A stretch of DNA of 64,000 bases, from the NCBI RefSeq assembly GCF_024213555.1, contig NZ_JANAVO010000001.1, positions 2,852,001-2,916,000 on the forward strand, written 5' to 3'. The notes below the pieces were generated by a model. It was not told the DNA's origin. It searched no databases and worked only from the letters and a program-made list of their open reading frames with translations. This document shows, piece after piece, positions 1 through 22,862 of this stretch (its first letter is position 1; the number at the start of each line of letters is the position of its first letter). The DNA is from Allokutzneria sp. A3M-2-11 16 (lineage in GTDB: Bacteria; Actinomycetota; Actinomycetes; Mycobacteriales; Pseudonocardiaceae). The translations under genes and the position numbers were made by a program.

Positions 1-243
1 CTGGTTGGTGATGCCGACCGCGACGACGTCGGCCGTGGTCAGGTCGGCCTTGGCCAGCGCGCCCGCGGCGACCCGGCGGGTGTTCTCCCAGATCTCCTCG
101 GCGTTGTGCTCGACCCAGCCCGCCTTCGGGAAGATCTGCTCGTGCTCCACCTGGTCGGAGGAGACGACCCGGCCGGAGTGGTTGAAGATCATGCAGCGGG
201 TGGAGGTTGTCCCCTGGTCGATCGCTGCCACGTACTGCGTCAT
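1..243 (-). CDS. glpK: Glycerol kinase, N-terminal part (runs off the left edge)
   Basis: Only the first 81 codons are present; the gene continues beyond the left edge. The enzyme phosphorylates glycerol with ATP to sn-glycerol 3-phosphate in the cytoplasm. The N-terminus carries the FGGY-kinase phosphate-binding loop DQGTTSTR at residues 9-16, then the typical IFNHSGRVV and [12 protein letters not shown] stretches of glycerol kinases. It reads in the same direction as the upstream aquaglyceroporin gene, 41 bases away, so the two are very probably one operon: uptake, then trapping of glycerol. Family identification is secure; completeness cannot be judged. Confidence 0.93.
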
Positions 244-8123: not shown

Positions 8124-8193
8124 GCGCACGACGCTAGCCAGCCGGACCGCGCCGCCCCTCGGCCGATCGGCCAGTACTACCTCATCCGGGTGG

Positions 8194-8451
8194 TCACCCG
8201 GCGTCGGTGACGAAGCCGCCGTAGCGGTCGGCCAGGAACTCCAGCTCGTCCTGCTCGTGGATCGCGGGCAGGCCGTCCGGCGTCGTCTCCACCAGGATCA
8301 GCCAGTCCGCGTCCTCGGCGTCGTCCTCCCCGGCGAGCAGCTCGCGGTGGACCGTGCACGGCACCCAGCCCGCGGCGAGCATCTCCTCGGCGAGGTCCTG
8401 CGCCTCGTCCTTGTCGTGCAACACGACCAGCAGCTGATGCGAAACGTCCAC
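8194..8451 (-). CDS. Small acidic hypothetical protein downstream of accA3
   Basis: An 85-residue acidic protein from GTG 8451 (VDVSHQLLVVLHDKDEAQ). An ATG at 8481, overlapping the carboxylase stop, would add ten residues. The visible pattern is an alternating strand-helix fold with LLVVLHDKDEAQDLAEEM and DWLILVETTPDG, which looks like a small ferredoxin-like or RNaseE-inhibitor-like alpha/beta protein, but I do not recognise the family. It sits 11 bases after accA3 on the same strand. The palindromic word GTCCACTGTGGAC covers its start region. Confidence 0.6.
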   Translation of the reverse strand: MDVSHQLLVVLHDKDEAQDLAEEMLAAGWVPCTVHRELLAGEDDAEDADWLILVETTPDGLPAIHEQDELEFLADRYGGFVTDAG

Positions 8452-8462
8452 TGTGGACTCTT

Positions 8463-10280
8463 TCAGTCCTTCAGCTCGCACAGCACGACGCCCTGGCCGA
8501 TCGGGTCGCCCGGGGCGGCGGTGAGCCCGGCGACGGTGCCCGCCTTGTGCGCGGTGACCGGGTTCTCCATCTTCATCGCCTCCAGCACCACGAGCAGGTC
8601 GCCCGCCTCGACGTGCTGGCCGTCCTCGACGGCGACCTTGACGATGGTGCCCTGCATCGGCGCGGCGACCGCGTCACCCGAGGCGGCAGCGGCCGCCTTG
8701 CCGCCGGAACGCTTGCGGGGCTTGGCCTTCACGGCCGCGCCACCGCCGTTGCCGCCGAGCGCCAGGTCTCCGGGCAGCGTGACCTCAAGGCGGCGCCCGC
8801 CGACCTCGACGACCACGCTCTGCCGGGGGATCTCGACGTCCTCGGTGCCCGCGGCGCCGCCGAAGGGCTCGATGGTGTTGTCGAACTCCGTCTCGATCCA
8901 CCGAGTATGAACAGCGAAGCGTTCAGCTGTGCCGATGCTCGATCCCGCAAGCGGATCTTCGGCGGTGAACGCCGGGTCGCGCAAGATAGCGCGGTGGAAC
9001 GGGAGCACGGTCGCCATGCCTTCGACGACCATTTCGTCCAGTGCGCGCCGGGCCCGCTCGATGGCCTGCTCCCGGGTCTCACCGGTGACGATCAGCTTGG
9101 CCAGCAACGAATCGAACTGACCGCCGATCACGCTGCCGGACTCCACGCCCGCGTCCACCCGGACCCCGGGGCCGGAGGGCGCGACGAACGTGGTCACCGT
9201 GCCGGGCGCGGGCAGGAAGTTGCGGCCCGCGTCCTCGCCGTTGATCCGGAACTCGATCGAGTGCCCGCGCGGGGCGGGGTCCTCGGTGAACCGCAGCTTC
9301 TCCCCGGCGGCGATGCGGAACTGCTCGCGCACCAGGTCGATGCCGGTGGTCTCCTCGCTGACCGGGTGCTCGACCTGGAGCCGGGTGTTGACCTCCAGGA
9401 AGGAGATCGTGCCGTCGAGGCCGACGAGGAACTCCACCGTGCCCGCGCCGTGGTAGCCCGCCTCGGCGCAGATCGCGCGGGCGGCCTCGTGGATGCCGCG
9501 GTGCTGCTCCTCGCTGAGGAACGGCGCCGGGGCCTCCTCGACCAGCTTCTGGTGCCTGCGCTGCAACGAGCAGTCGCGGGTGCCGACCACGACCACGGTG
9601 CCGTGCTGGTCGGCGAGCACCTGGGCCTCGACGTGGCGGGGCTTGTCCAGGTAGCGCTCCACGAAGCACTCGCCGCGGCCGAAGGCGGCGACCGCCTCGC
9701 GCACCGCGCTGTCGAAGAGCTCCGGGATCTCCTCCATGGTGCGGGCGACCTTGAGGCCGCGGCCGCCGCCGCCGAACGCGGCCTTGATCGCGATCGGCAG
9801 CCCGTGCTCGGAGGCGAAGGCGATGATCTCGTCGGGACCGCTGACCGGCTCCTTGGTCCCGGGCACCAGCGGGGCGCCCGCGCGCATCGCGATGTGCCGC
9901 GCGGTGACCTTGTCGCCGAGGTCGCGGATCGCCTGGGGCGTCGGCCCGATCCAGATCAGGTCCGCGTCGATGACGGCCTGGGCGAAGTCGGCGTTCTCGG
10001 AGAGGAAGCCGTAGCCGGGGTGCACCGCGTCGGCGCCCGCGCGCTTGGCGACGTCGAGCAGCTTGTCGACGCTGAGGTAGGACTCCGCGGCGGTGCTGCC
10101 GCCGAGCGCGAACGCCTCATCGGCGAGCCTGGCGAAGGGCGCGTCGCGGTCGGGGTCGGCGTAGACGGCCACACTGGCCAGTCCCGCGTCCCGGCAGGCC
10201 CTGATCACCCGCACGGCGATCTCGCCGCGGTTGGCTACGAGCACCTTGGTGATGGCTCGCCCCTGCGTGTCGCTGCGCAC
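8463..10280 (-). CDS. accA3: Acyl-CoA carboxylase alpha subunit (biotin carboxylase + BCCP)
   Basis: About 605 residues. The N-terminal biotin carboxylase domain ([17 protein letters not shown], the ATP-grasp glycine loop FGGGGRGLK, and the catalytic segment [12 protein letters not shown]) carboxylates biotin with ATP and bicarbonate. The C-terminal BCCP domain carries the biotinyl lysine in EAMKM. It serves beta subunits such as the AccD5 encoded nearby to make malonyl-, methylmalonyl- or longer acyl-CoAs. AGGAGG precedes two GTG codons; I chose 10280 for its spacing (10286 is possible). Unusually, about 10-14 residues reading [15 protein letters not shown] interrupt the region before [10 protein letters not shown], where relatives have a short linker (see the 8934-8963 repeat). 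Confidence 0.95.
8934..8963 (-). repeat. In-frame palindromic element, copy 1 (inside accA3)
   Basis: One of three near-identical units of about 28 bases with consensus CCGAAGAYYCGCTYGCGGGR followed by TCGAGCA. The centre GATCCGCTTGCGGGATC is close to palindromic. Here it encodes EDPLAGSSI in the linker between the carboxylase core and the BCCP region. Other copies lie in accE (15591-15618) and, in opposite orientation, cbiZ (22362-22391). Confidence 0.7.
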
Positions 10281-10447
10281 TGACACCGCACCTCCTCGTG
10301 ACGACGCGTCGGTCAACAGACTGGCGCGTCGGCGAGTCTAGGGTCCAGGTGAGGGGTGCTACTGGAGAGCAACCTCACGTGTCGCGCAGGCGTCGTTGCA
10401 GTTGCTGTTTCCAGCCGGTAACCATTCAGGCGAAGGGGGTGTGCGAG

Positions 10448-11143
10448 GTGTCGTCCGCGCCGAAGTCGGTCGTCGTGACCATGTGGGCCAGCGCGGTGGT
10501 GACCGTCGCGGCCCTGCTCGCCGTCGCCGCGCTGCGCTGGACCCACGACGGTTCGCCGCCCGGCACCGGACCCTCGCCCACCACGACGTCCGCGGCCCAG
10601 GGACAGCTCTACTGCAACACCGGGCCGTGCAAGGTGCTGGCCACCCAGCGCATCGAGGGCGACCAGATCGAGCTGCTGACCGACAAGAACGGCGGCAACG
10701 GGCGCATCCGGGTGGGGCGGGACAACGCGCACAGCATCTTCGAGGTCACCATCGGCCAGTACTCGGCGCGGCTGACCCCGCAGTCGCTGAGCTGCGCCCC
10801 CGGCCGCACCGCGGTCTGCCTGGTCTCCGGTGAGGCCGGGGACACCGTGACCGGGGAGCTGTTCGTGCGCGGTCCGGAGGCGTGGGAGCGCGCGCAGTCG
10901 GCCTACGTGGCCACCGCGGGCCTGATGAACCTGCACGACGTGGACGGCAACGGCGTCGCCGAGCTGGTGACCGCGCAGAGCCGCTGCGGCAGCGGGGCCA
11001 CGCTCTGCGAGGCCTACTTCATCGAGGTGTGGTCGACCGAGACGGAGCAGATGGGCTGCACGGCCACGGTGAACAGGCTGGACCGGCTGCCCGGATACCC
11101 CTCAGCACTCGCGCCCGCGAAGTCCGCGCTGCGCAAGTGCTGA
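10448..11143 (+). CDS. Membrane-anchored extracytoplasmic hypothetical protein
   Basis: A 231-residue protein from GTG 10448, with AAGGGGG eight bases upstream. A single hydrophobic helix (about residues 8-28) anchors the N-terminus. A Pro/Ser/Thr linker follows, then a soluble domain that starts YCNTGPCKVLATQRI and has several Cys pairs suggesting disulfides. A segment DVDGNGVAELVT looks like one calcium-binding beta-propeller (FG-GAP-type) repeat, so the domain may be all-beta. I do not recognise a named family. It is divergent from accA3 and converges on the symporter with an eleven-base gap. Confidence 0.7.
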   Translation: MSSAPKSVVVTMWASAVVTVAALLAVAALRWTHDGSPPGTGPSPTTTSAAQGQLYCNTGPCKVLATQRIEGDQIELLTDKNGGNGRIRVGRDNAHSIFEVTIGQYSARLTPQSLSCAPGRTAVCLVSGEAGDTVTGELFVRGPEAWERAQSAYVATAGLMNLHDVDGNGVAELVTAQSRCGSGATLCEAYFIEVWSTETEQMGCTATVNRLDRLPGYPSALAPAKSALRKC

Positions 11144-11153
11144 CGAGCTGGGG

Positions 11154-12446
11154 TCAGGCCGGGACCGGTTCCGAGTCGGAGTCGGAGTCCAGGACGTCGG
11201 TCCGCGGCGCGTTGTAGACCTCGTCGTCCAGGGTGCCCTCGCTGCGCGCGACGAGGACCGGGACGACCATCTGGCCCGCCACGTTCGTCGCGGTGCGCAT
11301 CATGTCCAGGATCGGGTCGATCGCCAGCAGCAGGCCGACACCGGCCAGCGGCAGGCCCACCGTCGACAGGGTCAGCGTGAGCATCACCGTGGCGCCGGTG
11401 AGCCCGGCGGTGGCCGCGGAACCGACCACGGACACGAACGCGATCAGCACGTAGTCCCACAGCGACAGCGGCACGTTGAAGACCTGCGACACGAAGATCG
11501 CGGCGATGGCGGGGTAGACCGCCGCGCAGCCGTCCATCTTGGTGCTCGCGCCGAACGGCACCGCGAAGCTCGCGTACTCCCTCGGCACGCCGAGGTTGTC
11601 GATGGTGGTGCGCTGCGTCAGCGGGAGCGTGCCGATCGAGGACCGGGACACGAACGCCAGCTGGATCGCGGGCCAGGCGTTGGCGAAGAACTTCGCCGGG
11701 CTGACCTTGCCGACCACGCGCAGCAGGACCGGGTAGACCACGAACAGCACCACGGCGCACGCGACGTAGACGCCGATCACGAACGTCGCGAGTGGACGGA
11801 GCAGGTCGAAGCCGTACTGGGAGGCGGCCTTGCCGATCAGGCCGAGGGTGCCGAGCGGGGCGAGCCGGATGACCCACCACAGCGCCTTCTGCACGACCTC
11901 CAGCAGCGAGCGGTTGAACGCGACGAACGGCTCGGCCTTCTCGCCCACCTTGTACGCGGCGATGCCGATCACCACGGCGAGGAAGACGATCTGCAGCACC
12001 TTGCCGTTGGAGGTGAACGCGTCGACCGGGTTGCTCGGGATGATCCCCTTGAGGAAGTCGAGCCAGCTGCCCTGCGTCTTCGGCGTGTAACCGGTGTCCG
12101 GGGTGAGCGCGACGCCCTGGCCGGGGTTGCTGACCAGCCCGGTCGCGATGCCGACGAGCACCGCGATCAGCGAGGTGATCCCGAACCACAGCAGGGTCTT
12201 GCCGGTCAGCCTGGCGACCGTGCCGGGCCCGCCGTTGATGTGCCGGAGGTTGGCGATGCTCACCACGATCGCGGTGAACACCAGCGGCACCACGGCGAGC
12301 ATGAGCAGCTGCACGAAGGTGCCGCCGATCGTGCTCAGCGCGGTGCCGAGCCAGGTCAGGTCGCCGACCCTGGCGATCACGCCCAGCGCGATGCCGAGCA
12401 CGAGGCCCGCCACGATCTGGACCCAGAAGGGGATCTTCTTGAGCAC
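11154..12446 (-). CDS. Sodium/proton-coupled DAACS family symporter (dicarboxylate, amino acid or cystine)
   Basis: A 430-residue membrane transporter of the dicarboxylate/amino acid:cation symporter family (DctA, GltP, TcyP). Eight or so hydrophobic helices are visible; the substrate region contains the re-entrant loop SRSSIGTLPLTQ and, further on, GASTKMDGCAAVYP and GLTGATVMLT, which align with the family's serine-rich loop and cation site. The family covers C4-dicarboxylates, glutamate/aspartate and L-cystine. The upstream leader peptide of the sulfur-linked actinobacterial type (12494-12574) makes an L-cystine role plausible, but that is inference. It ends in an acidic Ser/Asp repeat tail. 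Confidence 0.88.
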   Translation of the reverse strand: MLKKIPFWVQIVAGLVLGIALGVIARVGDLTWLGTALSTIGGTFVQLLMLAVVPLVFTAIVVSIANLRHINGGPGTVARLTGKTLLWFGITSLIAVLVGIATGLVSNPGQGVALTPDTGYTPKTQGSWLDFLKGIIPSNPVDAFTSNGKVLQIVFLAVVIGIAAYKVGEKAEPFVAFNRSLLEVVQKALWWVIRLAPLGTLGLIGKAASQYGFDLLRPLATFVIGVYVACAVVLFVVYPVLLRVVGKVSPAKFFANAWPAIQLAFVSRSSIGTLPLTQRTTIDNLGVPREYASFAVPFGASTKMDGCAAVYPAIAAIFVSQVFNVPLSLWDYVLIAFVSVVGSAATAGLTGATVMLTLTLSTVGLPLAGVGLLLAIDPILDMMRTATNVAGQMVVPVLVARSEGTLDDEVYNAPRTDVLDSDSDSEPVPA

Positions 12447-12493
12447 GGGGATTCCTTGGCGTGTAAGGGAACGGGGTTCGGTGTCGGGGCGGG

Positions 12494-12574
12494 TCAGCCA
12501 GGACAGAGCGAACTCGCCTGCCGTCGCAGATCGACGTGCAGGCGCCTGGTGAGCAGAAGCCGAGGAATCTTCAT
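12494..12574 (-). CDS. Putative regulatory leader peptide, 26 residues
   Basis: A short open frame from ATG 12574 to TGA 12494, 47 bases before the symporter start on the same strand. It contains the string LTRRLHVDLRRQASSLC. This matches the actinobacterial 'putative leader peptide' pattern (basic run, HVDL, R-Q-A-S, Cys near the end), which from general knowledge usually lies in front of sulfur uptake or assimilation genes and is thought to sense cysteine through translation of its own Cys codon. Here the Cys is the third residue from the end. No clear terminator hairpin is visible between the leader and the symporter. Confidence 0.6.
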   Translation of the reverse strand: MKIPRLLLTRRLHVDLRRQASSLCPG

Positions 12575-12585
12575 CGCGCCCTCAA

Positions 12586-13245
12586 CTAACCATCGGCGCC
12601 CGCGCGGCCTTCCTGGTCCCGCCAAAGTGTGACGACACCCACCCCCACCTGCGCAAGGAGCTTCCGGGTGAGGGGAAGGCTGATGCCGATGACGCTGGAC
12701 GGGTCGCCGTCAACGCCCTCGACGAACCAGCCGCCGAGCCCGTCCAGGGTGAAGCCGCCCGCGACCGCCAGCGGCTCCTCGGTCGCCAGGTAGGCCTCCA
12801 GTTCCTCGCCGGTGACGTCGGCGAAGCGGACCGTGGTCGACGCCGAGCCCTTGGCGCGCGCGACGACCTCGCCGTCGCGGAACAGCGCCACCGCGTGCCC
12901 GGTGAGCAGGTCGCCGGTGCCGCCCGCCATGTGCTTCCACCGCTCGCGGGCCACCTCGACCGCGCCCGGTTTGCCGACCACCTTCGGCCCGTCGCCGAAG
13001 TCCATCAGCAGCATCGAGTCGCAGGCGACGACCACGCAGTCCGGGAACTCCGCGGCCACGTCCTGGCAGACGGCCGCCGCTTTGGCCTCGGCGAGCGCCA
13101 CGACCAGGTCGGTCGGGGAGGCGTCGCCGAGCGCCGCGGTGACGGCGTCCTCGTCCACACCGGAGACGCGGACGATCGGGTCGATCCCGGCGGCACCGAG
13201 CACGGCGCGGCGGGCGGGGGAGGCTGAGGCAAGCACGAATCGCAC
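12586..13245 (-). CDS. maf: Maf-like nucleotide pyrophosphatase
   Basis: About 219 residues from GTG 13245. Maf proteins hydrolyse non-canonical or excess nucleoside triphosphates (dTTP, UTP, m5UTP) to monophosphates and have been linked to septum control. Signature features are FVLASASPARRAVLG at the N-terminus, the VDED segment, the catalytic ACDSMLLMD, the conserved KPG after it and a late GGFTLDGLGGWFVEGVDGD motif. No strong ribosome site precedes the start, so it may be leaderless. In mycobacteria maf also lies between accA3 and accE/accD5, so this is conserved gene order. Confidence 0.92.
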   Translation of the reverse strand: MRFVLASASPARRAVLGAAGIDPIVRVSGVDEDAVTAALGDASPTDLVVALAEAKAAAVCQDVAAEFPDCVVVACDSMLLMDFGDGPKVVGKPGAVEVARERWKHMAGGTGDLLTGHAVALFRDGEVVARAKGSASTTVRFADVTGEELEAYLATEEPLAVAGGFTLDGLGGWFVEGVDGDPSSVIGISLPLTRKLLAQVGVGVVTLWRDQEGRAGADG

Positions 13246-13308
13246 GAGCCGCGAGGGTAGCCAGTCCGCCGCTCCGCGTCTCGCTCCGTCCCAGCGCGGC
13301 GGTTCGGC

Positions 13309-13364
13309 GGTCTTCAAGTACAGCGAACCCCCTCCCCAGCGGTCTCAAACCGCCCCCAACCCCC
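13309..13364. repeat. Long intergenic palindromic repeat, half copy (A)
   Basis: The left arm only of the repeat family seen complete at 15221-15360, 31132-31260 and 34339-34477. It begins GGTCTTCAAGTACAGCGAAC and runs through CCCCTCCCCAGCGG and CCGCCCCCAACCCCC. The matching right arm ending GTACTTGAAGACGCC is absent. It sits between maf and the broken peptidase gene. Confidence 0.75.
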
Positions 13365-13386
13365 GCGCACTCTCGGGATGAGTCGC

Positions 13387-14954
13387 TCAGCGCTCGCCGT
13401 TGAGCAGTGCGGTGGGCGCGGGCATCCCGGAACGTGCTTCCGGAGCCGATTCGCCGCCCGTGGTGGGCAGTTCGCCGACCAGGGGGAGGCTGAACGCGGT
13501 GCGGCTCAGGTCGACGGTGATCTGGGGCAGCTGCGCCGGAGCGGTGATGAACGAGTTGTCCGTGCCGCCGATGATCACCGCGAGCTGGTGGCCCGCCGGG
13601 ATCACGTGGTCGAGCGCGGAGAGCCGGAACGTCATCGTGTAGTTCTGCCCCGAGCGCAACGGTGTGCTGCTGTTCAGCGACGTGTGGTTGCTCAGGTCGG
13701 CCCAACCCCGCGCCAGCACCTCGTGGTCGACCTGTTTCGTCGTGGTCGCGGTGTCCTTGTAACAAGCGTTGTCGCCGTCGCGGTTCTCGCCCCAGCACGA
13801 CTCCGTCGACAGCGTCCTGATGCCTTCCCCGCTACCCCGGTAGTCGCGGATCGTGTTGGGGCCGTAGTGAACCAGCGCGGCGGTCAGCCGGTGCCGGAGA
13901 GACGGAGTTCCCTGCTCAGCGAACCCGTGGTGAACAGCACCCGGGACGGTAAGGAAGTGTTGGGCTGCAACGCCCGCGAGAACTCGTTGGCCCGGCCGTT
14001 GTCGGTCAGCTGCTCGGTTTTCCCAGCCGCGGCAGGGGTTGCGGCGAGCTTGCCGAGGCCCGCGGTGGTGCCTGGCTGCGGGCGCACGGAGGTCAGCTTC
14101 GTCGCGGGCGGCCAGACCTCGTCGGTGGCCCACGTGTCCGGGGCGCGCTCCACGTCGGCCATCGGCTCGGTGTCGATGACGTTCACGTCGCCGAGCCCGT
14201 GCACGACGAAGACGCTGGCCTTCACCTTGCTCGCGTCCGGGACGTGGTTGCGCTCCGCCCACATCGGGGTGAAGTCGCCGTTGGCCTTGGTGCCCTGGTC
14301 GAGCGCGGTCTTGGCGTGACCGCAGTCGGCCCGCCCGCCGCCCTCGACCCGGCTCGCGAGACCGGAGGGGCCGCTGCGGCGGAACGGGACGCCGTCACCG
14401 CGGTAGTAGTCGTACCAGGAGCTGATCGCGCCGATCGGCACGATGGTGCGCAGTCCCTCGACACCCGTGGCCGCGACACCGTTGGCGACGGTGCCGTCGT
14501 AGGACTTGCCGATCATGCCGACCGCGCCGGTCGACCACGTGGCCTGCACCGGCTTGCCGCCCGCGAGGTCGACGAGCACGACGGAGTAGCCGCGCGGCAC
14601 GAAGTAGTTGTCGTAGAAGAGCGGGAAGCCGACCGGTCGCCCGTTCGCGTCGTAGGTCTTGAGCTCGGATTCGTTGCCGCGCCCGCAGCACGAGTAGTAC
14701 GGGCTGGCGTCCATGATCACCGGGACCCTGGCGGTGGTCTGCGGCCGCACGATGTCCGCGGCCACCCGGTCGCGCACACCGTCCCGGTCGCCGTCCAGGC
14801 CGATGTCCACCCACACCGTCTCGCGCACCGCGTCGGCGAGCGCGTGCACGGGCTGGCTGAGCCCTCCCGAAAGGGGCCGCGCCGACGCGGGCGGCACCAC
14901 CGTCGATGTGATGAGGGCCAGTAGCCCGACCAGGACGCTGATCCGTGTGAGCAA
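13387..14954 (-). pseudogene. Broken S15-family Xaa-Pro dipeptidyl-peptidase gene
   Basis: A secreted S15 peptidase (alpha/beta hydrolase fold) interrupted by several deletions. It starts at TTG 14954 (GGAGG six bases upstream) with a signal peptide ending PPASA. The nucleophile motif GKSYDGT is kept. Relative to the family as I know it, segments are missing after VDLAG and after HGLGDVNV; the second gap removes the region with the catalytic His (GHVDPF-type motif). At about 13890 the frame shifts: frame one ends RLSGTG-stop at 13884, and the rest continues in another frame from LTAALVHYGPNTIRDY through SCWGE to LLNGER, ending at 13387. About 530 residues can be read where relatives have over 600. 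A full protein cannot be made. Confidence 0.82.
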
Positions 14955-15087
14955 AGCGCACCTCCGCCTGATGACCTGGAACAACGCTATTCACCCTGCC
15001 CAGGCACCGGACAGAGCCGATCGTTGTCGGCCGTCGTGAGTAGTCGTGCGGATGCGGGCGGTGTCCGCGCGGGTCAACCATGGCCGG

Positions 15088-15204
15088 ATGTATTTGATCA
15101 CCAAGGTGCGCCGCCACGCGTGGCTGCTGTCGATGCTCGGAGCAGCCGTGGTTGGCGGTCTCGCCGGTCTGCTGATGCTCGCCGACCCCGCGCTCTTCCC
15201 CTGA
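15088..15204 (+). CDS. Possible 38-residue single-helix membrane protein
   Basis: A short open frame beginning MYLITKVRRHAW, with one clear hydrophobic helix (residues 13-32, rich in Gly, Ala, Leu, Val) after a basic N-terminus, and ending ADPALFP. The positive-inside pattern suits a real small membrane protein with its N-terminus in the cytoplasm. No convincing ribosome site is seen. It lies divergent from the broken peptidase and just before the 15221-15360 repeat. Codon use suits the genome, but evidence is limited to composition. Confidence 0.4.
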   Translation: MYLITKVRRHAWLLSMLGAAVVGGLAGLLMLADPALFP

Positions 15205-15220
15205 ACCTTGTGCTCGCCGG

Positions 15221-15360
15221 GTTGGCCGGTCTTCAAGTACCGCGAACCCCGGCCCCAGCAACCGCTAACGGCCCCCAACCCCGCTCTGCGGCTGGGGTTG
15301 AGGGCGGTTAGCGACTTTGTGGGCGGGGGTGCGGTGTACTTGAAGACGCCCTAACCACCG
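15221..15360. repeat. Long intergenic palindromic repeat, full copy (B)
   Basis: An inverted repeat of about 140 bases. The left arm starts GTTGGCCGGTCTTCAAGTAC and continues CGCGAACCCCGGCCCCAGC, CGCTAACGGCC and CCCAACCCC. After a short GCTCTGCGG loop the right arm returns GGGGTTGAGGGCGGTTAGCG, then GGGCGGGGGTGCGG and GTACTTGAAGACGCC. It can fold into one long hairpin. Location: between the small membrane protein and the 3' end of accE. Confidence 0.85.
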
Positions 15361-15375
15361 TGCGCAATGTTTCGG

Positions 15376-15624
15376 TCAGAAGCGGTGGGCGGAGGCTCGC
15401 CAGGCTCCTGGGCCGGGGTGGTGCGGGCGTCGTTGCAGCGAGGATCGGTCGGCCCAGAGGGAGCGCGGCTGCGGCGGGGGTTCGGGCGCCTGCTGGCTCG
15501 CCATGGCCGTGATCACCGCCGCGAGGGCAGCGAGTTCTTCGTCGGTCGGCTCGCCCCGGACGACGCGCAGCAGCGGTTCGCCGGTGCTCTTGCTCGACCC
15601 CGCGAGCGGGTCTTCGGCGCTCAC
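15376..15624 (-). CDS. accE: Acyl-CoA carboxylase epsilon subunit
   Basis: An 82-residue AccE protein, which binds the beta subunit and stabilises the actinobacterial acyl-CoA carboxylase complex. The core [20 protein letters not shown] followed by a Pro-rich stretch and a Trp/Arg tail ending [13 protein letters not shown] is typical. GTG 15624 overlaps the accD5 stop by four bases (GTGA), so the two are coupled. Its N-terminus is unusual: relatives go almost directly from Met to EPLLRVV, while here [13 protein letters not shown] comes first, encoded by copy 2 of the in-frame palindromic element. Confidence 0.85.
15591..15618 (-). repeat. In-frame palindromic element, copy 2 (start of accE)
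   Basis: The second copy of the CCGAAGAYYCGCTYGCGGGR-TCGAGCA unit. It begins five bases downstream of the accE GTG and encodes EDPLAGSSK. The same reading frame is used as in copy 1 in accA3, so both proteins gain EDPLAGSS. Confidence 0.7.
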
Positions 15625-17261
15625 AGCGGGATGTTCCCGTGCTTCTTGGGCGGAAGCGTCTCCCGCTTCTCCTTCAACAGGTTCAGCGCGCGGGCCACGT
15701 AACCGCGGGTGTAGGACGGCGGGATCACCGAGTCCACGTAGCCGCGCTCGGCCGCCACGTACGGGTTGCACAGGGTGTCCTCGTACTCCTGCTGGAGCTT
15801 GGCGCGCAAGGCATCCACGTCCTCGCCACGCTCCGCCGCCTGCGCCAAAGTCTTGCGGTGCACGATGTTCGCGGCCCCGGAGGCGCCCATGACCGCGATC
15901 TGGGCGGTCGGCCACGCCAGGTTCACGTCCGCGCCGAGGTGCTTGGAGCCCATGACGTCGTAGGCGCCGCCGTACGCCTTGCGGGTGATCACCGTGACCA
16001 GCGGGACGGTGGCCTCGGCGTAGGCGTAGATCAGCTTCGCGCCGCGGCGGATGATGCCGTTCCACTCCTGGTCGGTGCCGGGGAGGAAGCCCGGGACGTC
16101 CACGAACGTCAGCACGGGGATGTTGAAGGCGTCGCAGGTGCGGACGAAGCGCGCGGCCTTCTCGCTGGCGTCGATGTCCAGGCAGCCGGCGAACTGGGTG
16201 GGCTGGTTGGCCACCACGCCGACGCTCTGCCCGTCCACCCGGCCGAGGCCGATCAGGATGTTCGGCGCGAACAACGGCTGCACCTCAAGGAATTCGCCGT
16301 CGTCGAGCACGCGGGTGATGACCTCGTGCATGTCGTAGGGCTGGTTCGCCGAGTCCGGGATGAGCGCGTCCAGCTCCCGGTCCTCGTCGGTCAGCGCCTC
16401 GGCGATCGAGGTCTCGGTGAGCGCCGGGGAGTCGTGGACCGGCGGCTCGGACAGGTTGTTCGACGGCAGGTAGCTCAGCAGCGCCTTGACGTAGCCGATC
16501 GCGTCGTCCTCGTCGGCGCCCATGTAGTGCGCGTTGCCGGACTTGGTGTTGTGCGTCCGCGCGCCGCCGAGGTCCTCGAAGCCGACGTCCTCACCGGTGA
16601 CCGTCTTGATCACGTCGGGGCCGGTGATGAACATGTGCGAGGTCTGGTCGACCATCACCGTGAAGTCGGTCAGCGCGGGGGAGTACACGTGCCCGCCCGC
16701 GCACGGCCCCATGATCAGCGAGATCTGCGGGATCACGCCGGAGGCCTGGGTGTTGCGGCGGAAGATCTCCCCGTAGAGGCCGAGCGAGACCACGCCCTCC
16801 TGGATGCGCGCCCCGCCGCCCTCGTTGATGCCCACGATCGGCCTGCCGGTCTTGAGCGCCAGCTCCATCACCTTGACGATCTTCTCGCCGTACACCTCGC
16901 CGAGCGAGCCGCCGAAGATCGTCACGTCCTGGCTGAACACGCACACCGGCCGCCCGTCCACGGTGCCGTAGCCGGTGACGACGCCGTCGCCGTAGGGCCG
17001 GTTGCGCTCCTGGCCGAAGTTGATCGAGCGGTGCCGCGCCAGCTCGTCCAGCTCGACGAACGACCCGGGATCGAGCAGCTTCTCGATCCGCTCGCGGGCA
17101 GTCATCTTGCCCTTGGCGTGCTGCTTCTCCACCGCGCGGGCGGAACCGGCGTGCACGGCCTCGTCGTTGCGGCGGTACAGGTCGGCGAGCTTGCCGGCGG
17201 TGGTGTGCGTGTCCGGCTCCGCGCTCGGTGCCACGCCGATCGGTTCGGTGGCGCTGCTCAT
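15621..17261 (-). CDS. accD5: Acyl-CoA (propionyl-CoA) carboxylase beta subunit
   Basis: A 546-residue carboxyltransferase that moves CO2 from carboxybiotin on AccA3 to an acyl-CoA, in this subfamily mostly propionyl-CoA, giving methylmalonyl-CoA. The N-terminal domain has [27 protein letters not shown], the oxyanion glycines of [12 protein letters not shown] and [16 protein letters not shown]. The C-terminal domain has the second oxyanion segment, with [14 protein letters not shown] and [15 protein letters not shown]. Length is normal. It is followed with overlap by accE; birA is divergent about 1.8 kb away. The start ATG 17261 is the only suitable one near the conserved N-terminus. Confidence 0.95.
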
Positions 17262-17316
17262 GACCGGTGAGCGTATCCACCCCGGCCAGGAGTGGTTACT
17301 GATGCGTATCCCACAT

Positions 17317-17521
17317 CACTCGTTCAGCGTTGACCACCGGCTTCTAGAGCGATTCAGGGCCGAGTTCGCGCGCGGATGTGCGGCGTGCGCTGTCCGGTCG
17401 CGCATGCCGACGACGCTTCGTCACGGCACAGCTGGGGAGGCGGCGTGAACATCCGGCGACACGTGATCGCGTCGGCCGCTTCCAGAATGTCCCGCAGGCG
17501 CTCGTCGGAGTCGCGCTTCAC
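17317..17521 (-). pseudogene. hepT: Remnant of a HepT-type HEPN toxin gene
   Basis: GTG 17521 overlaps the MNT antitoxin stop by four bases and reads VKRDSDERLRDILEAADAI, the usual N-terminus of DUF86/HepT HEPN toxins. The frame then loses resemblance to the family and stops at 17354. In another frame, between about 17410 and 17317, the sequence VGMRDRTAHA appears; it carries the HEPN ribonuclease motif R-x4-H (RDRTAH). The middle of the protein (the 'VRLIEIGEAV'-type segment) is missing. I read this as a toxin gene broken by a deletion plus frameshift, leaving the antitoxin intact. Confidence 0.65.
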
Positions 17522-17841
17522 ACCGCGACCGCTTCGTTGAGGATGCGCTCGCGCATGCGTTCCTTGATCCCGTTCGGCGTGGCGACCTGCGTGAACACGC
17601 CGAGCAACTCTTCGACCCTGAGCGCGAAGCCGGTCAGCGCGAAGTAGCCGCCGTCAATTTCGACGAGCAGGTCCAGATCGCTGTCGTCGTCCGCCTCGCC
17701 CCTGGCGACCGAGCCGAAGACGCGGATGTTGCTGACGCCGTAGCGGGACGCGATTTCATAGATCTCGTCGCGGTGTGCGCGGACTTCGTCGAGGGTGACT
17801 CGGCGGTGCGGGGCGTCGTTGACTTCGACATTGGGGTCCAT
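17518..17841 (-). CDS. MNT-domain nucleotidyltransferase antitoxin (MntA-like)
   Basis: A 107-residue minimal nucleotidyltransferase. The signature GSVARGEADDDSDLDLLVE carries the Gly-Ser pair and the metal-binding Asp-x-Asp. In HEPN/MNT (type VII) toxin-antitoxin pairs such proteins AMPylate and silence the HEPN toxin. The toxin normally follows with overlapping codons, and its broken remnant is found exactly there. The N-terminal 25 residues (VTLDEVRAHRDEIYEIASRY) and the C-terminal helix (TPNGIKERMRERILNEAV) are standard for the family. With no toxin, this gene is probably an orphan. Confidence 0.85.
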   Translation of the reverse strand: MDPNVEVNDAPHRRVTLDEVRAHRDEIYEIASRYGVSNIRVFGSVARGEADDDSDLDLLVEIDGGYFALTGFALRVEELLGVFTQVATPNGIKERMRERILNEAVAV

Positions 17842-17886
17842 GGCTCCTCCTTCCGCCGTGCACCGCCGATCATCCCAGACACGCCG

Positions 17887-18933
17887 TCAGACCGGGGTGG
17901 CGCGGAGGACGCTCATCGCGACGGGGAACGCGCAGCGGCTGACCGACGCGATGCCGAGACCGGCCTCCGCGAGCAGCGCGGCGAACTCCTCCTGGGTGCG
18001 CTCCTTGCCGGTGGTGCACACCATCATGTTGAGGTCGCTCATCACCACGAACGGCTCATCGGCGAAGTCGGTGATGCCCGACGGCATGAGCTGCTCGACG
18101 ATCAGGAGCTCGCTGTCGGGGCGCATCGCCCGCGCACAGCTGCGCAGGATGCGGACAGCGCTGGAGTCGTCCCAGTCGTGCAGGACGCTCTTGAGCACGT
18201 ACGTGTCGTGGCCCGCGGGCACGGACTCGAAGAAGTCCCCCGGCAGCGCGCGGCAGCGGTCCGTGACCGACGCGAGCACGGGAGCCGACTCGGCGAGCCC
18301 CATCGGCAGGTCGTAGAGGATGCCCGTCACGTGCGGGTTCGCCGCCAGCAGACCCGCGATGAGCGTGCCGTTGCCGCCACCGACGTCGACGAGCGTCGTG
18401 GTGGCCGACAGGTCGCACGCGGCGACGACGGCCGGGTTCTGCGTCTCGGTCGTCTCCGCCATGGCGCCGTTGAAGTGCGCCTCGGCCTCGGGGTGCTCGG
18501 CCAGCCACTCGAACGGTTCGCGGCCGTACTCCAGCTCGATCCCGGAGCGACCGGTCCGCACGCTTTCCGCCATGCGGCCCCAGGAGTTCCACGTCGGCTC
18601 GCCGCCGAAGGTGAGCGCGAGGTTGCGCACGGAGCCCGGCACGCCTTCGCGCAGCATCTCGCCCGCGCCGGTGAGCACGTAGACGTCCTTCTCGGTCTCC
18701 TTCACCAGTCCGACCTGCGTCGCTCCGCGCATCAGCCGTTTCAGCGACGGCTCGTGCACGGTCAGGTCGGTGGCGAGCTGCGAGGTGGTGCGAGCGCCGT
18801 CCGCGAGCGCGTCGGCGACGCCGAGCCTCGTGACGGTGTGCACGACCTGTGCGGGGCAGAAGGCGAACAGCATTCCCACGACGTACGCGCGGTCGGCGTG
18901 CACATCCGCGCCCGCGAGCTGGTCAGTGCTCAT
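17887..18933 (-). CDS. SAM-dependent O-methyltransferase of the dimerising (AcnA/tcmN-like) type
   Basis: A 348-residue methyltransferase from ATG 18933 with GAGAGAGG upstream. The first 100 residues form the winged-helix dimerisation domain (AQVVHTVTRLGVADALADGA). The catalytic domain has the SAM glycine loop VDVGGGNGTL, the acidic end of strand two (ILYDLP), and the catalytic segment LKSVLHDWDD typical of small-molecule O-methyltransferases from polyketide and aromatic pathways. No biosynthetic cluster surrounds it, so the substrate is unknown. It is divergent from birA. Confidence 0.88.
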   Translation of the reverse strand: MSTDQLAGADVHADRAYVVGMLFAFCPAQVVHTVTRLGVADALADGARTTSQLATDLTVHEPSLKRLMRGATQVGLVKETEKDVYVLTGAGEMLREGVPGSVRNLALTFGGEPTWNSWGRMAESVRTGRSGIELEYGREPFEWLAEHPEAEAHFNGAMAETTETQNPAVVAACDLSATTTLVDVGGGNGTLIAGLLAANPHVTGILYDLPMGLAESAPVLASVTDRCRALPGDFFESVPAGHDTYVLKSVLHDWDDSSAVRILRSCARAMRPDSELLIVEQLMPSGITDFADEPFVVMSDLNMMVCTTGKERTQEEFAALLAEAGLGIASVSRCAFPVAMSVLRATPV

Positions 18934-19081
18934 CGAATTCCTCTCTCGGCGAGGGCCTCGGCGGAGAATGTCCCCCAGCGCGGCCAAACCCGCTCGCCGA
19001 GGGGTTACCCGAAAGAGTGTCCACAGTGGACTATTCGCCCCCGGAGCGCCGACTGTTCCCCGGCGACTACCCTGACCAGGC

Positions 19082-19939
19082 GTGATCGCCGATCTCGCCG
19101 CCCTGCCCGCGGACGCGCTGCGCGCCGAGCTGTTGGCCCCGAACGGGCCGTACACCGCGCTCGACGTGCTGGACCGCACCGGCTCGACCAACACCGACCT
19201 CGCCGCCGCGGCCCGGGAGGGCGCGCCGGACCGGACGGTGCTCATCGCCGAGGAGCAGACGGCGGGGCGCGGCCGGAACACCCGGTCGTGGGTTTCTCCC
19301 GCGCGGGCGGGCATCCACGTGTCGGTGCTGCTGCGCCCGGCCGGGGTGCCGGTTGCCCGGTTCGGGTGGTTGATGATGCTCGGCGGCGTCGTGGTGCAGC
19401 GCGTGCTCAGCGGGCTCTGCGCGGTCGACGCGGTGCTCAAGTGGCCGAACGACCTGCTGGTCGGCCCCGATCGGGCGAAGTGCTGCGGAGTGCTCGCCGA
19501 AGCGGTCGGCGGGTCGAGTCCGGCGGTCGTGCTCGGCATCGGGGTGAACGTGCACCAACGAGCGGATGAACTTCCAGTCGGCCCCGGCGGGCTCCCGCCG
19601 ACCTCGCTGGCCCTCCAGGGCGCGGACTGCCTGGAGCGCGACCGCATTCTGGTGGAGTTGTTGCGGGAGCTGGATTTCGCCGAGCGGCAGTGGCGCGAGC
19701 ACTCCGGCGACCCGGTGCGCAGCGGGCTGGTCGAGCAGTACCGGCAGGTCTGCGGCACGTTGGGCCAGCGAGTCCGGGTGGAGTTGCCCGCGAGCGGGGG
19801 CGCCACCCGCTTCCTGCTCGGCGTCGCCGAGGACGTCGACGACGACGGCAGGCTCGTCGTGCGGACCGCGGACGGTTCGGCGCAACCGATCTCCGCCGGT
19901 GACGTCATCCATTTGCGCCCGGCCACCCATCCCGGGTGA
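19082..19939 (+). CDS. birA: Biotin-[acetyl-CoA-carboxylase] ligase
   Basis: A 285-residue enzyme that makes biotinyl-AMP and attaches biotin to the AccA3 lysine. The motifs TGSTNTDL (34-41), the biotin/AMP loop GRGRNTR (62-68) and KWPNDLLV (120-127) are all present. There is no N-terminal helix-turn-helix, so it is a group I enzyme without repressor function. The C-terminal SH3-like domain is complete, ending around AGDVIHL. It opens a five-gene run on the plus strand and lies divergent from the methyltransferase, in the accD5 neighbourhood as in mycobacteria. Confidence 0.95.
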   Translation: MIADLAALPADALRAELLAPNGPYTALDVLDRTGSTNTDLAAAAREGAPDRTVLIAEEQTAGRGRNTRSWVSPARAGIHVSVLLRPAGVPVARFGWLMMLGGVVVQRVLSGLCAVDAVLKWPNDLLVGPDRAKCCGVLAEAVGGSSPAVVLGIGVNVHQRADELPVGPGGLPPTSLALQGADCLERDRILVELLRELDFAERQWREHSGDPVRSGLVEQYRQVCGTLGQRVRVELPASGGATRFLLGVAEDVDDDGRLVVRTADGSAQPISAGDVIHLRPATHPG

Positions 19940-19989
19940 TCCGGCGGGGCCGGTACCGTGTGGCCGTCGCACACCCCAGGAGGATTGCC

Positions 19990-20505
19990 GTGGCATACCC
20001 GGACGACCTGCTTTCCGACGACGAGCAGGTCGTGGTGCACAAGCACCCGCACTGGAAGATGCTGTTCTTCCCCGTGATCGTGCTGCTCGTCGTTGTCGGC
20101 GGCGGCATCTACCTCGCCACGCTGGTGGAGGCGACGGACTGGCGGATGATCGGCCAGATCGGGATCGCCGTCGTGGGCGGCATCCTGCTCGTCTGGTTCG
20201 TCTTCGCGCCGTTCGTGCGCTGGCGCACCACGCATTTCGTGGTGACCACCCACCGGCTGATGGTGCGCGAGGGCGTGCTCAAGCGGACCGGCATCGACCT
20301 GCCGATGTCCAAGATCAACAGTGTCCGCTCGAACCAGTCGCTCTCCGACCGGCTGTTCGGCTGCGGCACGCTCGTCGTCGAGTCAGCCTCCGACGAACCG
20401 CTGGAGTTCGACGACATCCCCAAGGTCGAGTACGTCCGCACGGTGCTCTACCGCGAGACCAACGACGACCCGAACGACGACTTCGCCCCGAAGCAGGCTC
20501 GCTGA
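19990..20505 (+). CDS. Membrane protein with bacterial PH domain
   Basis: A 171-residue protein from GTG 19990, with AGGAGG five bases upstream. Two membrane helices (about residues 25-45 and 55-75) form a hairpin. A bacterial pleckstrin-homology domain (bPH2 type) follows: RWRTTHFVVTTHRLMVREGV, then PMSKINSVRSNQSLSDRLFGCGTLVVESA, the hallmark of this family. The role is unknown, perhaps in membrane stress. In M. tuberculosis a homologue lies right after birA, so the pair is conserved. The stop overlaps the next start by one base. Confidence 0.85.
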   Translation: MAYPDDLLSDDEQVVVHKHPHWKMLFFPVIVLLVVVGGGIYLATLVEATDWRMIGQIGIAVVGGILLVWFVFAPFVRWRTTHFVVTTHRLMVREGVLKRTGIDLPMSKINSVRSNQSLSDRLFGCGTLVVESASDEPLEFDDIPKVEYVRTVLYRETNDDPNDDFAPKQAR

Positions 20506-21440
20506 TGGGGGCTCGCGAGGTCGGCCTGCCGACCAGGTCGGTCCCGCTGGAGTCCTTCTACCCGCAGCGGGTGACGATCTGGGAGGTCGGCGCCCGCGAC
20601 GGGCTGCAGAACGAGAAGACGACCGTCCCGGTCGCCACCAAGCTGGAGTTCCTCGGGCGCCTCGCCGACGCGGGGCTGACCACGTTGGAGGCGACCAGCT
20701 TCGTGCACCCGAAGTGGGTGCCGCAGCTGGCCGACGCCGAGGAGCTGCTGGCCGGGCTGGACCGCCGCCCCGGCGTCGACTACCCGGTGCTGGTGCCGAA
20801 CGAGCGCGGGCTGGAGCGTGCGCTCGCGTCGGGCGTCGGCCACATCGCGATCTTCGCCAGCGCCACCGAGAGCTTCGCCAAGCGCAACCTCAACCGCACT
20901 CTGGACGAGCAGTTCGAGATGTTCGAGCCGGTGGTCGTCAGGGCGCTGGCCGAGGGGCTGCGGGTGCGCGGCTACATCTCGATGTGCTTCGGCGACCAGT
21001 GGGAGGGCGACGTCGAACCGGAGCAGGTGCACCGGGTCGGCGAACGGCTGCTGGACATGGGCTGCTGGCAGATCTCCCTCGGCGACACGATCGGCGTGGC
21101 CACGCCCGGACTGGTCGAGGACGTCATCGCGGGCTTCGACGAGATCGACCGGCTCGCCGTGCACTTCCACGACACCTACGGCCAGGCGCTGGCCAACACG
21201 CTGACCGCGCTGCGCTGCGGCGTGTCCACTGTGGACTCTTCGGCTGGCGGGCTCGGCGGCTGCCCCTACGCGGAGTCGGCCACCGGCAACCTCGCCACCG
21301 AGGATCTGGTGTGGGCGTTGGAGGGCATGGGCATCGAGCACGGCGTCGACCTGGACGCGCTCGCCAGGACCAGCGCGTGGATGGCGCAGCAGCTCGGCAG
21401 GCCGAGCCCGTCGCGGGTGGTCCAGGCGCTCACGGGATGA
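20505..21440 (+). CDS. Hydroxymethylglutaryl-CoA lyase family enzyme
   Basis: A 311-residue TIM-barrel aldolase-type enzyme of the HMGL-like family, cleaving 3-hydroxy-3-methylglutaryl-CoA to acetoacetate and acetyl-CoA in leucine breakdown. It carries WEVGARDGLQNE with the catalytic Arg, the metal-binding VHFHDTYGQA, and the G-loop GGLGGCPYAESATGN with the active-site Cys. The start ATG overlaps the upstream stop by one base, and the end overlaps the next ATG by four bases, so the run is tightly coupled. A paralogue lies at 54449-55348. A related specificity such as another 3-hydroxyacyl-CoA lyase is possible. Confidence 0.88.
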   Translation: MGAREVGLPTRSVPLESFYPQRVTIWEVGARDGLQNEKTTVPVATKLEFLGRLADAGLTTLEATSFVHPKWVPQLADAEELLAGLDRRPGVDYPVLVPNERGLERALASGVGHIAIFASATESFAKRNLNRTLDEQFEMFEPVVVRALAEGLRVRGYISMCFGDQWEGDVEPEQVHRVGERLLDMGCWQISLGDTIGVATPGLVEDVIAGFDEIDRLAVHFHDTYGQALANTLTALRCGVSTVDSSAGGLGGCPYAESATGNLATEDLVWALEGMGIEHGVDLDALARTSAWMAQQLGRPSPSRVVQALTG

Positions 21441-22003
21441 ACGTCCAGCCGCTCGACCGGAGCACGTGGCCACTGCTGGAGGAGCTGTTCGGGCCACGGG
21501 GTGCGGTCGAGGGCTGCTGGTGCATGTGGTTCCGGCAGAGCAATGCCGGGCAGCGCGAGAACGCGGGTGAAGGTAACCGGAAAGCCTTGAAGGGCCTCGT
21601 GCACGCCGGTACGCCGCTCGGATTGCTTGCCATACAAGAAGATCACGCGGTCGGTTGGGTGGCGGTCGCGCCTCGGTCGGACTATTCGCGACTCGAACGC
21701 TCGCAGGTCGCCAAACCCGTTGAGCGCGAAGAAGATCTGACCGATGTGTGGTCGGTGACGTGCTTCTTCGTCCACCGTTCCGCGCGTCGCCAGGGCGTGA
21801 CCGCGGCGCTGTTGGAAGCCGCTGTCGAGCACGCTCGGGAGGGCGACGCGCGGGTCGTCGAGGGTTATCCTGTGGACACCGAGGGGGCCAAGCGGGAATC
21901 CAGCTCGCTCTACCACGGGACGTTGAACCTGTTCCTGGCCAACGGTTTTGAAGTTGTACAGAGGCGTGGCACGCGGCGCGCGCTGGTTCGTAGAGTGTTC
22001 TGA
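21437..22003 (+). CDS. GNAT N-acetyltransferase
   Basis: A 188-residue protein of the GNAT fold from ATG 21437, overlapping the previous gene by four bases. The N-terminal CWCMWFRQSNAGQRENAGEG segment is characteristic of a common actinobacterial GNAT subfamily of unknown substrate. The acetyl-CoA part reads VTCFFVHRSARRQGVTAALLEAAVEHA, and a C-terminal YHGTLNLFLANGFEVVQRRG follows. It shares an operon with birA, the PH protein, HMG-CoA lyase and cbiZ, but nothing ties it biochemically to them. Confidence 0.85.
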   Translation: MNVQPLDRSTWPLLEELFGPRGAVEGCWCMWFRQSNAGQRENAGEGNRKALKGLVHAGTPLGLLAIQEDHAVGWVAVAPRSDYSRLERSQVAKPVEREEDLTDVWSVTCFFVHRSARRQGVTAALLEAAVEHAREGDARVVEGYPVDTEGAKRESSSLYHGTLNLFLANGFEVVQRRGTRRALVRRVF

Positions 22004-22698
22004 TGAGCGAGTGGACCGCGCCGGCGCCGGTGCTGCACTGGGTGGAGTCGTATCCGGTGCTGACCTGGCAGGCCGAGCGACCGTGGCTGGCGATCTCCTC
22101 CGGTGTGCATGGCGGCGGCATCGGAGAGCGGTCGTGGGTGGTCAACGCGTCGGTCGGGACGAACTACGAGCGCGACGACCCGGACGTGCACGTGGCCGAA
22201 CTCGCTGCCGCGTCAGGGCTTTCCGGTGCGGGCACGGGGTTGCTGACCGCCGTGGACGTCCGCCTCGCGGTGACCAACGCGGACAACGGCGTGGTGGCGT
22301 CGGCGACGACCGGCGTCGGCCTGCACCCCACATGGGCCGCCGCGAAATCGTCCACAGCATCGATGCTCGACCCCGCAAGCGAGTCTTCGGTGGACACAAC
22401 GCCAGGGACCATCAACGTGGTCTGCTGGCTCCCCGTGCGGATGTCGGAGGCGGCATTGGTGAACGCGGTCGCCACGGTCGCGGAGGCCAAGGCGCAGGCG
22501 TTGCGCGAGGCTGAGATCCCCGGCACCGGGACCGTCACCGACGCGATTGTGTTGCTGTGCCCCACAAACGGGCCCGCCGAGTCCTACGGCGGGCCACGTT
22601 CGCGGATCGGCTCGGCGATGGCGCGCGCCGTACACGCCTCGATCGAGGAGGGCCTCCGCGTGAAGTCCCCGCGCTACGAGCCCTGGACCGCCCCCTGA
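22003..22698 (+). CDS. cbiZ: Adenosylcobinamide amidohydrolase (CbiZ family)
   Basis: A 231-residue enzyme that salvages cobinamide by hydrolysing adenosylcobinamide to adenosylcobyric acid. Family strings are VNASVGTNYERDDPDVHV, GLHPTWAAA, then PGTINVVCWLPVRMSEAALVNAV and a late PAESYGGPRSRIGSAMARAVHA. Start ATG overlaps the upstream stop by one base. Between HPTWAAA and PGTINVV relatives have a short linker; here KSSTASMLDPASESSVDTT is present, encoded by copy 3 of the in-frame palindromic element. Whether the enzyme stays active is unknown. No cobalamin riboswitch is seen. Confidence 0.85.
   Translation: MSEWTAPAPVLHWVESYPVLTWQAERPWLAISSGVHGGGIGERSWVVNASVGTNYERDDPDVHVAELAAASGLSGAGTGLLTAVDVRLAVTNADNGVVASATTGVGLHPTWAAAKSSTASMLDPASESSVDTTPGTINVVCWLPVRMSEAALVNAVATVAEAKAQALREAEIPGTGTVTDAIVLLCPTNGPAESYGGPRSRIGSAMARAVHASIEEGLRVKSPRYEPWTAP
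22362..22391 (+). repeat. In-frame palindromic element, copy 3 (inside cbiZ, reverse orientation)
   Basis: The third copy of the element. Relative to its host gene it is inverted compared with the accA3 and accE copies, so it is translated as MLDPASESS rather than EDPLAGSS. Both reading directions of the unit lack stop codons in the frames used, which allows insertion in either direction. Confidence 0.7.
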
Positions 22699-22714
22699 CC
22701 CAGCGTGGCTTTTC

Positions 22715-22777
22715 CCCGTTTCGTACTCATAGCAGCAAAAAGAGCGCTCCCAAACCCCGTTATGAGTACGAAACGGG
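22715..22777. repeat. Intergenic palindrome type 2, copy 1
   Basis: Perfect 17-base arms, CCCGTTTCGTACTCATA and its complement, around a core containing AAAAAGAGCGCTCCCAAA. It lies between the convergent cbiZ and the small secreted protein gene and may act as a bidirectional terminator. The right flank GGGAGTTCTCTAGG is shared with the copy at 39897-39959. Confidence 0.75.
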
Positions 22778-22862
22778 AGTTCTCTAGGCCGCCTGGGCCC
22801 ACGGGGAGTGGGAGGGGCGGTTGAGCGTCATGGGGTGGAGTGTAGCCCTGGTCCGGTCCTGA

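Follow-up and report, generated by a model that had tools for sequence, protein, structure and literature searches.

A window of 64,000 nucleotides from the genome of Allokutzneria sp. A3M-2-11 16 (contig NZ_JANAVO010000001.1, positions 2,852,001 to 2,916,000 of the forward strand) was analysed for a short palindromic repeat, three copies of which lie inside the genes accA3, accE and cbiZ. The source genome and the two congeners used for comparison (G001 and G002) belong to the genus Allokutzneria in the family Pseudonocardiaceae; one congener corresponds to Allokutzneria sp. NRRL B-24872 by the positions of its copies. The inserted units and their host genes are as follows, numbered from the first letter of the window.

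8463..10316, minus strand: host gene accA3, biotin carboxylase / biotin carrier subunit, longest open reading frame (ORF)
8931-8963 (core 8936-8962), plus strand: inserted unit 1, in accA3, read on the minus strand; absent from both congeners
15376..15624, minus strand: host gene accE, 82 amino acids from the GTG at 15624, overlapping the stop of the upstream ORF; named from its context and after the preliminary description, not by a family search
15586-15618 (core 15591-15617), plus strand: inserted unit 2, in accE, a few codons downstream of the GTG start codon; minus-strand reading; absent from both congeners
22003..22698, plus strand: host gene cbiZ, adenosylcobinamide amidohydrolase (PF01955, E = 3e-47)
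22359-22391 (core 22364-22390), plus strand: inserted unit 3, inside cbiZ, read on the plus strand as SMLDPASESSV; present in both congeners

A preliminary description of the window had reported units of about 28 bases in these genes, the third in the opposite orientation, and had read them as EDPLAGSS in AccA3 and AccE and as MLDPASESS in CbiZ. The three units are present as described, and the peptide readings are correct. All three cores lie on the plus strand; as accA3 and accE are minus-strand genes and cbiZ is a plus-strand gene, the third copy is opposite relative to its gene. As for the length, however, the inserted unit is longer and typically comprises 33 bases, as determined by alignment with orthologues lacking the element. 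The net difference from both congeners was +39 bp at the AccA3 site and +33 bp at the AccE site, and in the closest solved AccA3-type chain (30hu_A3a, acyl-CoA carboxylase alpha3 subunit) a ten-residue gap falls exactly at the segment. The CbiZ segment was present in the three Allokutzneria genomes and absent from all six homologues from other genera of the Pseudonocardiaceae, which were 6-11 residues shorter at this position (25 genomes were searched, and a homologue was found in nine).

The core of the repeat, TGCTCGAYCCCGCRAGCGGRTCTTCGG (27 bp), was found at 55 places in the source genome (31 forward and 24 reverse; 8.81 Mb in 43 contigs, with up to three mismatches), and the reversed pattern, scanned as a control under the same conditions, at none; a chance origin was thus rejected. 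The two congeners contain 148 (G001) and 34 (G002) copies. In the Pseudonocardiaceae, at least one copy was detected in 56 of 297 genomes, representing 16 of 46 genera (up to two mismatches). In a sample of 394 genomes of the class, scanned with a pattern in which four paired positions were freed and only one mismatch was allowed elsewhere, the source genome alone matched, and none of the 391 genomes from outside the family carried any match. Viral contigs yielded no exact match to the element and plasmids no match; phages yielded two weak matches (E = 0.07), and no Rfam family matched positions 8000-23000 of the window at gathering scores. The preliminary description had named two outcomes that would speak against an insertion, namely orthologues that all carry the segment and a genome devoid of further copies. 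Neither was observed: AccA3 and AccE lack the segment in both congeners and CbiZ lacks it in the other genera, and further copies abound in the source genome and its relatives.

Filled and empty sites in the congeners

With thirty flanks as queries, the two congeners were searched for orthologous stretches; alignment of these gave data for 29 sites, and at 24 of them the core was missing from at least one congener. Data from both congeners were available for 22 sites, of which 15 were filled in the source genome only, five were shared with G001 only, two were filled in all three genomes, and none was shared with G002 only. The mean flank identity was 89.9% to G001 (24 rows) and 86.9% to G002 (15 rows). 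Because G001 is the nearer relative by this measure, the pattern of presence follows kinship, as insertion and subsequent inheritance predict, and no loss of the element was seen among the 22 sites.

The net gain was a multiple of three at all 20 sites classed as coding: 33 bp at 13 sites, 36 bp at three, 39 bp at two (one of them AccA3), and 30 bp at two. Note that L025 was counted as coding by manual reading, the gene model having given no frame, and that L031 has a net of 33 against G001 and of 35 against G002, whose start region has diverged. The four remaining sites, which are intergenic or precede a gene start, gave nets of 78/10, 32, -3, and 30/33. The earlier implication that the element by itself preserves the frame is therefore mechanistic only in part: the unit is usually 33 bp long, but with nets of 30, 36 and 39 in genes and of 32 beside a gene, selection probably does part of the frame-keeping. 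The 32-bp net insertion is at L022 (near 1501), between the 3' end of a metK-like gene (manual reading) and a methyltransferase gene; it breaks the old overlapping start frame, and a new ATG start codon is available from bases at the element (also by manual reading).

The repeat is genome-wide, GC-rich and palindromic, as would also be expected of an ancient segment lost from the relatives, or of a chromosome-organisation motif such as HIP1 arising by point mutation. We regard this explanation as scarcely credible and rejected it on the net-length differences of 33 bp at the congener sites; the presence of the repeat following kinship and the CbiZ proteins of six other genera that have no segment speak against it as well.

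The unit, its hairpin and its target

The consensus of the unit is GCYGA, the 27-base core and Y. The left part comprises about five variable bases, the last of which is mostly A, and the single base after the core is usually T or C. When the core is numbered 1-27 in the plus orientation, the inserted bases of the 33-bp unit run from -4 to 28. The strongest positions outside the core are C at -8 (51 of the 55 source-genome copies), A at 0 (48/55) and T at -5 (31/55). Within the core, a stem can be formed by the pairs 6-22, 7-21, 8-20, 9-19, 11-18, 12-17 and 13-16, leaving C10 as a bulge and two bases in the loop. Mutual information was calculated for 528 position pairs in 200 distinct copies. 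The pair 8-20 gave the highest value (0.716; shuffle maximum, 0.051), occurring as C-G in 121 copies, T-A in 60 and A-T in four, and the pair 11-18 gave the second highest (0.249; shuffle maximum, 0.059), with C-G in 186 and T-A in eight. Some other pairs exceeded the shuffles by a much smaller margin and were mostly neighbouring bases. The bulged hairpin is thus supported by covariation at 8-20 and 11-18. The nearly palindromic centre noted in the preliminary description stands as a stem in this sense; the palindrome is imperfect, with a bulged C10, and the folding energy does not support it, since that of single copies was unremarkable (z-scores of -1.27 to 0.02 for six strands). An outer stem (-4..0 with 24..28, GCCGA with TCGGC), at first thought to be part of the element, showed no covariation and is therefore not claimed. 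The idea that variation is confined to synonymous positions also overstated the case: apart from positions 8, 14 and 20, wobble positions were no more variable than the others.

In 14 events with a net of 33 bp, the inserted bases are -4 to 28. Of the 14 empty sites, 10 had C at -8, 10 had G at -6 and 11 had G at 30; C at -8 was present at all 14 filled sites. Junctions were clean at several sites (L007, L012, L016 and L033); in several events, bases -6/-5 were altered upon insertion. The target can thus be approximated as C-N-G-Y^G-G, with the left bases also being rewritten in some events. No target duplication was apparent in the 14 events, apart from a repeated flank stretch at L033.

In the loci examined, neighbouring copies no more than 300 bp apart formed 30 distinct pairs in the same orientation versus one in the opposite orientation (L151, 1500 and 1761, 261 bp apart). 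Of the former, 24 were spaced by 33 bp and two by 32 bp. The 3' end of the unit itself, CGGY, resembles the target C-N-G-Y^G-G, and this resemblance would explain the head-to-tail 33-bp arrays. A CRISPR array was rejected, as the near-identical units are mostly 33 bp apart, with spacers of six bases. Two arrays may be recorded here: three identical units in G001 (C1:7730074-7730164) are spaced by 32 bp, not 33 bp, and Kibdelosporangium philippinense (L096, 2927-3335) has a run of at least six units, several of which have diverged.

Reading phase and host proteins

A three-periodic gene model was trained on the window and applied to 161 distinct sites (51 from the source genome, 69 from G001, one from G002 and 40 from named records), and a site was called in-gene when both flanks were in the same frame (77 of the 161). 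Phase 1 was used at 65 of the 77 in-gene sites, 30 on the plus strand (LDPASGSS) and 35 on the minus strand (EDPLAGSS), so that the count of coding copies by orientation and frame, which had been suggested as a check, gave one favoured phase per strand. When insertions common to two genomes were merged by flank similarity, phase 1 was found in 58 of 69. A codon-position null derived from the window genes predicts 48% phase 1 with CNGT alone and 69% with CNGTG, and the observed proportion exceeds both (P = 7e-10 and P = 3e-3, respectively). Because the two commonest units have no stop codon in any of the six frames, stop codons do not explain the bias; the other phases encode Arg- or Cys-rich peptides. 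We infer that selection after insertion is the main cause of the phase bias, on top of the bias of the target itself. The favoured phase of either strand encodes a small hydrophilic linker (LDPASGSS or EDPLAGSS), and insertions in this phase would survive in loops, linkers and protein ends, those in other phases being mostly lost by selection.

As for the 51 source-genome sites, both flanks were in one gene frame at 20, and 39 read in phase 1 of an ORF (38 by script and AccE by direct reading). The latter count is generous: the script took the phase-1 side where the flanks differed, and L022, L049 and L056 are doubtful. Among the remaining sites, L024 lies just after a stop codon (manual reading), nine had no frame call, and two are in the +2 phase, namely L032 (near 1501, in a GNAT-type protein, shared with G001) and L040 (near 1527, in a cellulase-domain protein), which read ARSRERIF.

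A Pfam domain was found in the same frame as the element in 38 of the 39 source-genome host frames scanned (41 were listed; L024 and L049 were left out). The hosts include polyketide synthase modules, UvrC, RuvC, a radical-SAM/TRAM protein, a CobN-type protein, an MFS transporter, an ABC ATPase with oligo_HPY, a SelR-domain protein and an aldehyde dehydrogenase. The element lies inside the domain matches in CbiZ, the methyltransferase of L012, CobN, MFS and oligo_HPY; elsewhere it falls between domain matches or near the N- and C-termini. Comparison with orthologues showed lineage-specific insertions in AccA3, AccE and polyketide-synthase genes; UvrC- and RuvC-type genes contain further copies. 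At L042 (1527-1560), a double unit lies near the C-terminus of the RuvC reading frame, and the gene that follows is one we take to be ruvA.

A peptide kept for its function in the hosts, as a tag or an interaction motif, would agree with a phase bias in both orientations and with a core that varies less than its flanks, as seen in 13 of the 14 rows comparing shared copies (several with poor alignment of the flanks). However, the hosts are unrelated, the congener orthologues do without the segment, the peptides encoded in the two orientations differ, some copies are noncoding (L024 and L037), and the variable positions 8/20 keep their base pairing. An adaptive linker of this kind is thus very improbable.

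Probable movement of the element and comparison with known systems

The preliminary description had proposed the insertion of a mobile, palindromic, in-frame element, and each of these three properties is supported. From the directly observed copy number, congener sites without the element, net lengths, phase bias and covariation, we consider it very likely that the repeat is a non-autonomous mobile element with a 33-bp unit, which spreads by insertion and is then inherited. New copies would be inserted with a preference for sites like C-N-G-Y^G-G and be passed on thereafter. The core would fold into the bulged hairpin, and a dedicated factor recognising it may exist, which would probably read single-stranded DNA or RNA. 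When the left half of the core was used as a query for an autonomous parent element, 42 places were obtained; no parent was found among four of them examined from outside the copy list, of which three resemble ordinary coding sequence and the fourth (L181) is a copy of the element with a one-base deletion.

Several observations weigh against this reading or against parts of it. Some absences in the congeners are not clean: the regions at L008 and L034 are noncoding and have diverged, and at L011 a short similar stretch resembling a remnant persists. The left junction is not clean either, with T at -5 in 10 of the 14 filled versus 4 of the 14 empty sites. Phases other than 1 were found at 12 of the 77 in-gene sites (+2 at seven, -2 at three, -0 at two and +0 at none), and in the source genome alone phase 1 (17 of 20) exceeded the CNGT null significantly (P = 8e-4) but fell short of significance under CNGTG (P = 0.09); the position of the target motif within codons accounts for part of the phase bias. 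No linkage was seen between core positions 8 and 14, and essentially none between the left bases and the core (the smallest of eight p-values was 0.017, for -1 with 8), so that clonal subfamilies are not visible; the five left bases are too variable for faithful copying with the core. The Y1 transposase (PF01797) was matched in none of the three genus genomes, in five of 14 control genomes, and in only four of 12 copy-bearing relatives. In G001, the sites showed no bias in fork direction: 43 lay along and 48 against the fork, set relative to the position of dnaA (91 sites from 100 listed of the 148 places). The search for a Y2 transposase matched no control genome and thus carries no weight either way.

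Two accounts of the movement remain, a putative enzyme with fixed ends and template switching at the hairpin. The former is favoured by the exact 33-bp units and the clean junctions, and the latter by the rewritten left bases, the nets of 30-39 bp and the little linkage. For spread free of any transposase, the hairpin would stall replication, and the polymerase would jump at short homologies (C-N-G-T on the left and CGG on the right) to another copy, copy about 33 bases and jump back. The lack of a Y1 match in the genus, the variable left junction with its changed bases -6/-5, the range of net lengths in genes, the weak association of left bases with core variants and the even fork directions are all compatible with such jumps. 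However, the nets are mostly exactly 33 and several junctions are clean, which a fixed-end enzyme fits better, and the sporadic presence in 16 of 46 genera asks for transfer or a long-lived enzyme; this route is possible and rather doubtful.

Transposition of IS200/IS605 type involves insertion 3' of a fixed tetranucleotide without duplication and with a lagging-strand bias. Compared with this, the present element prefers C-N-G-Y and mostly shows no duplication, and its fork directions are nearly equal. A HUH/Y1 enzyme acting in trans on single strands, as for repetitive extragenic palindromic (REP) elements, and either no longer present in the genus or too diverged to match the model, would suit the bulged GC-rich hairpin and the insertion 3' of a short preferred sequence, mostly without target-site duplication, which are features of IS200/IS605 and REP elements, as well as the Y1 proteins of four copy-bearing relatives. 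One further relative-level observation is that G093, which bears copies, has two near-complete Y1 transposase domains (C45:11112-11474, at L192, and C43:965-1327). Against such an enzyme stand the absence of PF01797 from all three genus genomes although the copies there are lineage-specific, the absence of a GTAG/GTGG head on the element, the head-to-tail rather than inverted pairs and the lack of a strand bias, and we hold it to be unlikely.

The element shares with REP/REPIN sequences a GC-rich imperfect hairpin in the range of 20-40 bp; some REPs have a similar CTTG loop and are sometimes intragenic (PMC3733652, PMC2817692), and REP repeats inside genes, including CGTC repeats without a transposase, are on record (PMC3733652). 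As far as these descriptions go, it differs from them in four respects: no GTAG/GTGG or CGTC tetranucleotide of the GTAG and CGTC super-families at the unit ends, no RAYT-type Y1_Tnp transposase in the genus, a location mostly inside genes instead of mostly outside them, and head-to-tail close pairs in place of the inverted pairs of REPIN/BIME. The enterobacterial RU/ERIC elements are likewise small mobile sequences translated within host genes; unlike the present unit, they are described as 103-168 bp long and similar to miniature inverted-repeat transposable elements (MITEs) (PMC2759123). The terminal inverted repeats and target-site duplication of MITEs were not found here, a direct flank repeat occurring in one of the 14 events (L033). 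PARCEL is also a protein-coding repeat with dyad symmetry, tandem arrays and spread between taxa; according to its description, however, its motif has 25 residues and forms tandem arrays in ORFs of unassigned function, many of them membrane-targeted, and it is not a single linker in unrelated enzymes (PMC2996958).

In-frame palindromic elements are best known from Rickettsia, whose members are obligate intracellular and hard to work with; to our knowledge, how the elements move there is unsettled. The preliminary description drew this analogy, which holds for the behaviour: both are palindromic, dispersed, and in frame within unrelated protein genes with a conserved peptide. It does not extend to several anatomical features. 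Rickettsia palindromic elements (RPEs) are described as about 100-150 bp long, with a long stem-loop and terminal inverted repeats (PMC2229807, PMC10969869, PMC4316617), and RPE-4/RPE-6 have been counted among short CGTC repeats (PMC3733652). Judging by these descriptions, the present element is set apart by its 33-bp unit with a short bulged stem and an outer stem free of covariation, its GC-rich actinobacterial host, one favoured phase per strand, and its head-to-tail arrays. It behaves like an RPE but is not classed as one. No earlier description in Actinobacteria was recognised in the open-licence literature, as judged from titles and the beginnings of abstracts. Tentatively, it may represent a new class of mobile element adapted to protein interiors, i.e., an 11-codon hairpin that folds for mobility and encodes a tolerated linker on both strands in a target-favoured phase, moved by an undescribed enzyme or by transposase-free template switching.

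A 33-bp in-frame palindromic element thus occurs in soil-type actinobacteria, in which sister species offer filled and empty alleles. Three questions become testable in this setting, namely how the element moves, how much it changes proteins and why the frame is kept, and it offers a natural test case for mobile DNA turning into protein, usually with about 11 residues added and seemingly tolerated. For annotation and engineering, these short linkers, which occur in polyketide synthases as well as core enzymes in genomes of this kind, are probably mobile DNA and not necessarily functional inserts. Finally, a record titled Rhodococcus rhodnii NRRL B-16535 that carries the element (L073, 5503; L076, 7836-7928) corresponds to genome G093 by its array positions; since G093 (12.4 Mb) is placed in the Pseudonocardiaceae, the label of this record looks wrong.

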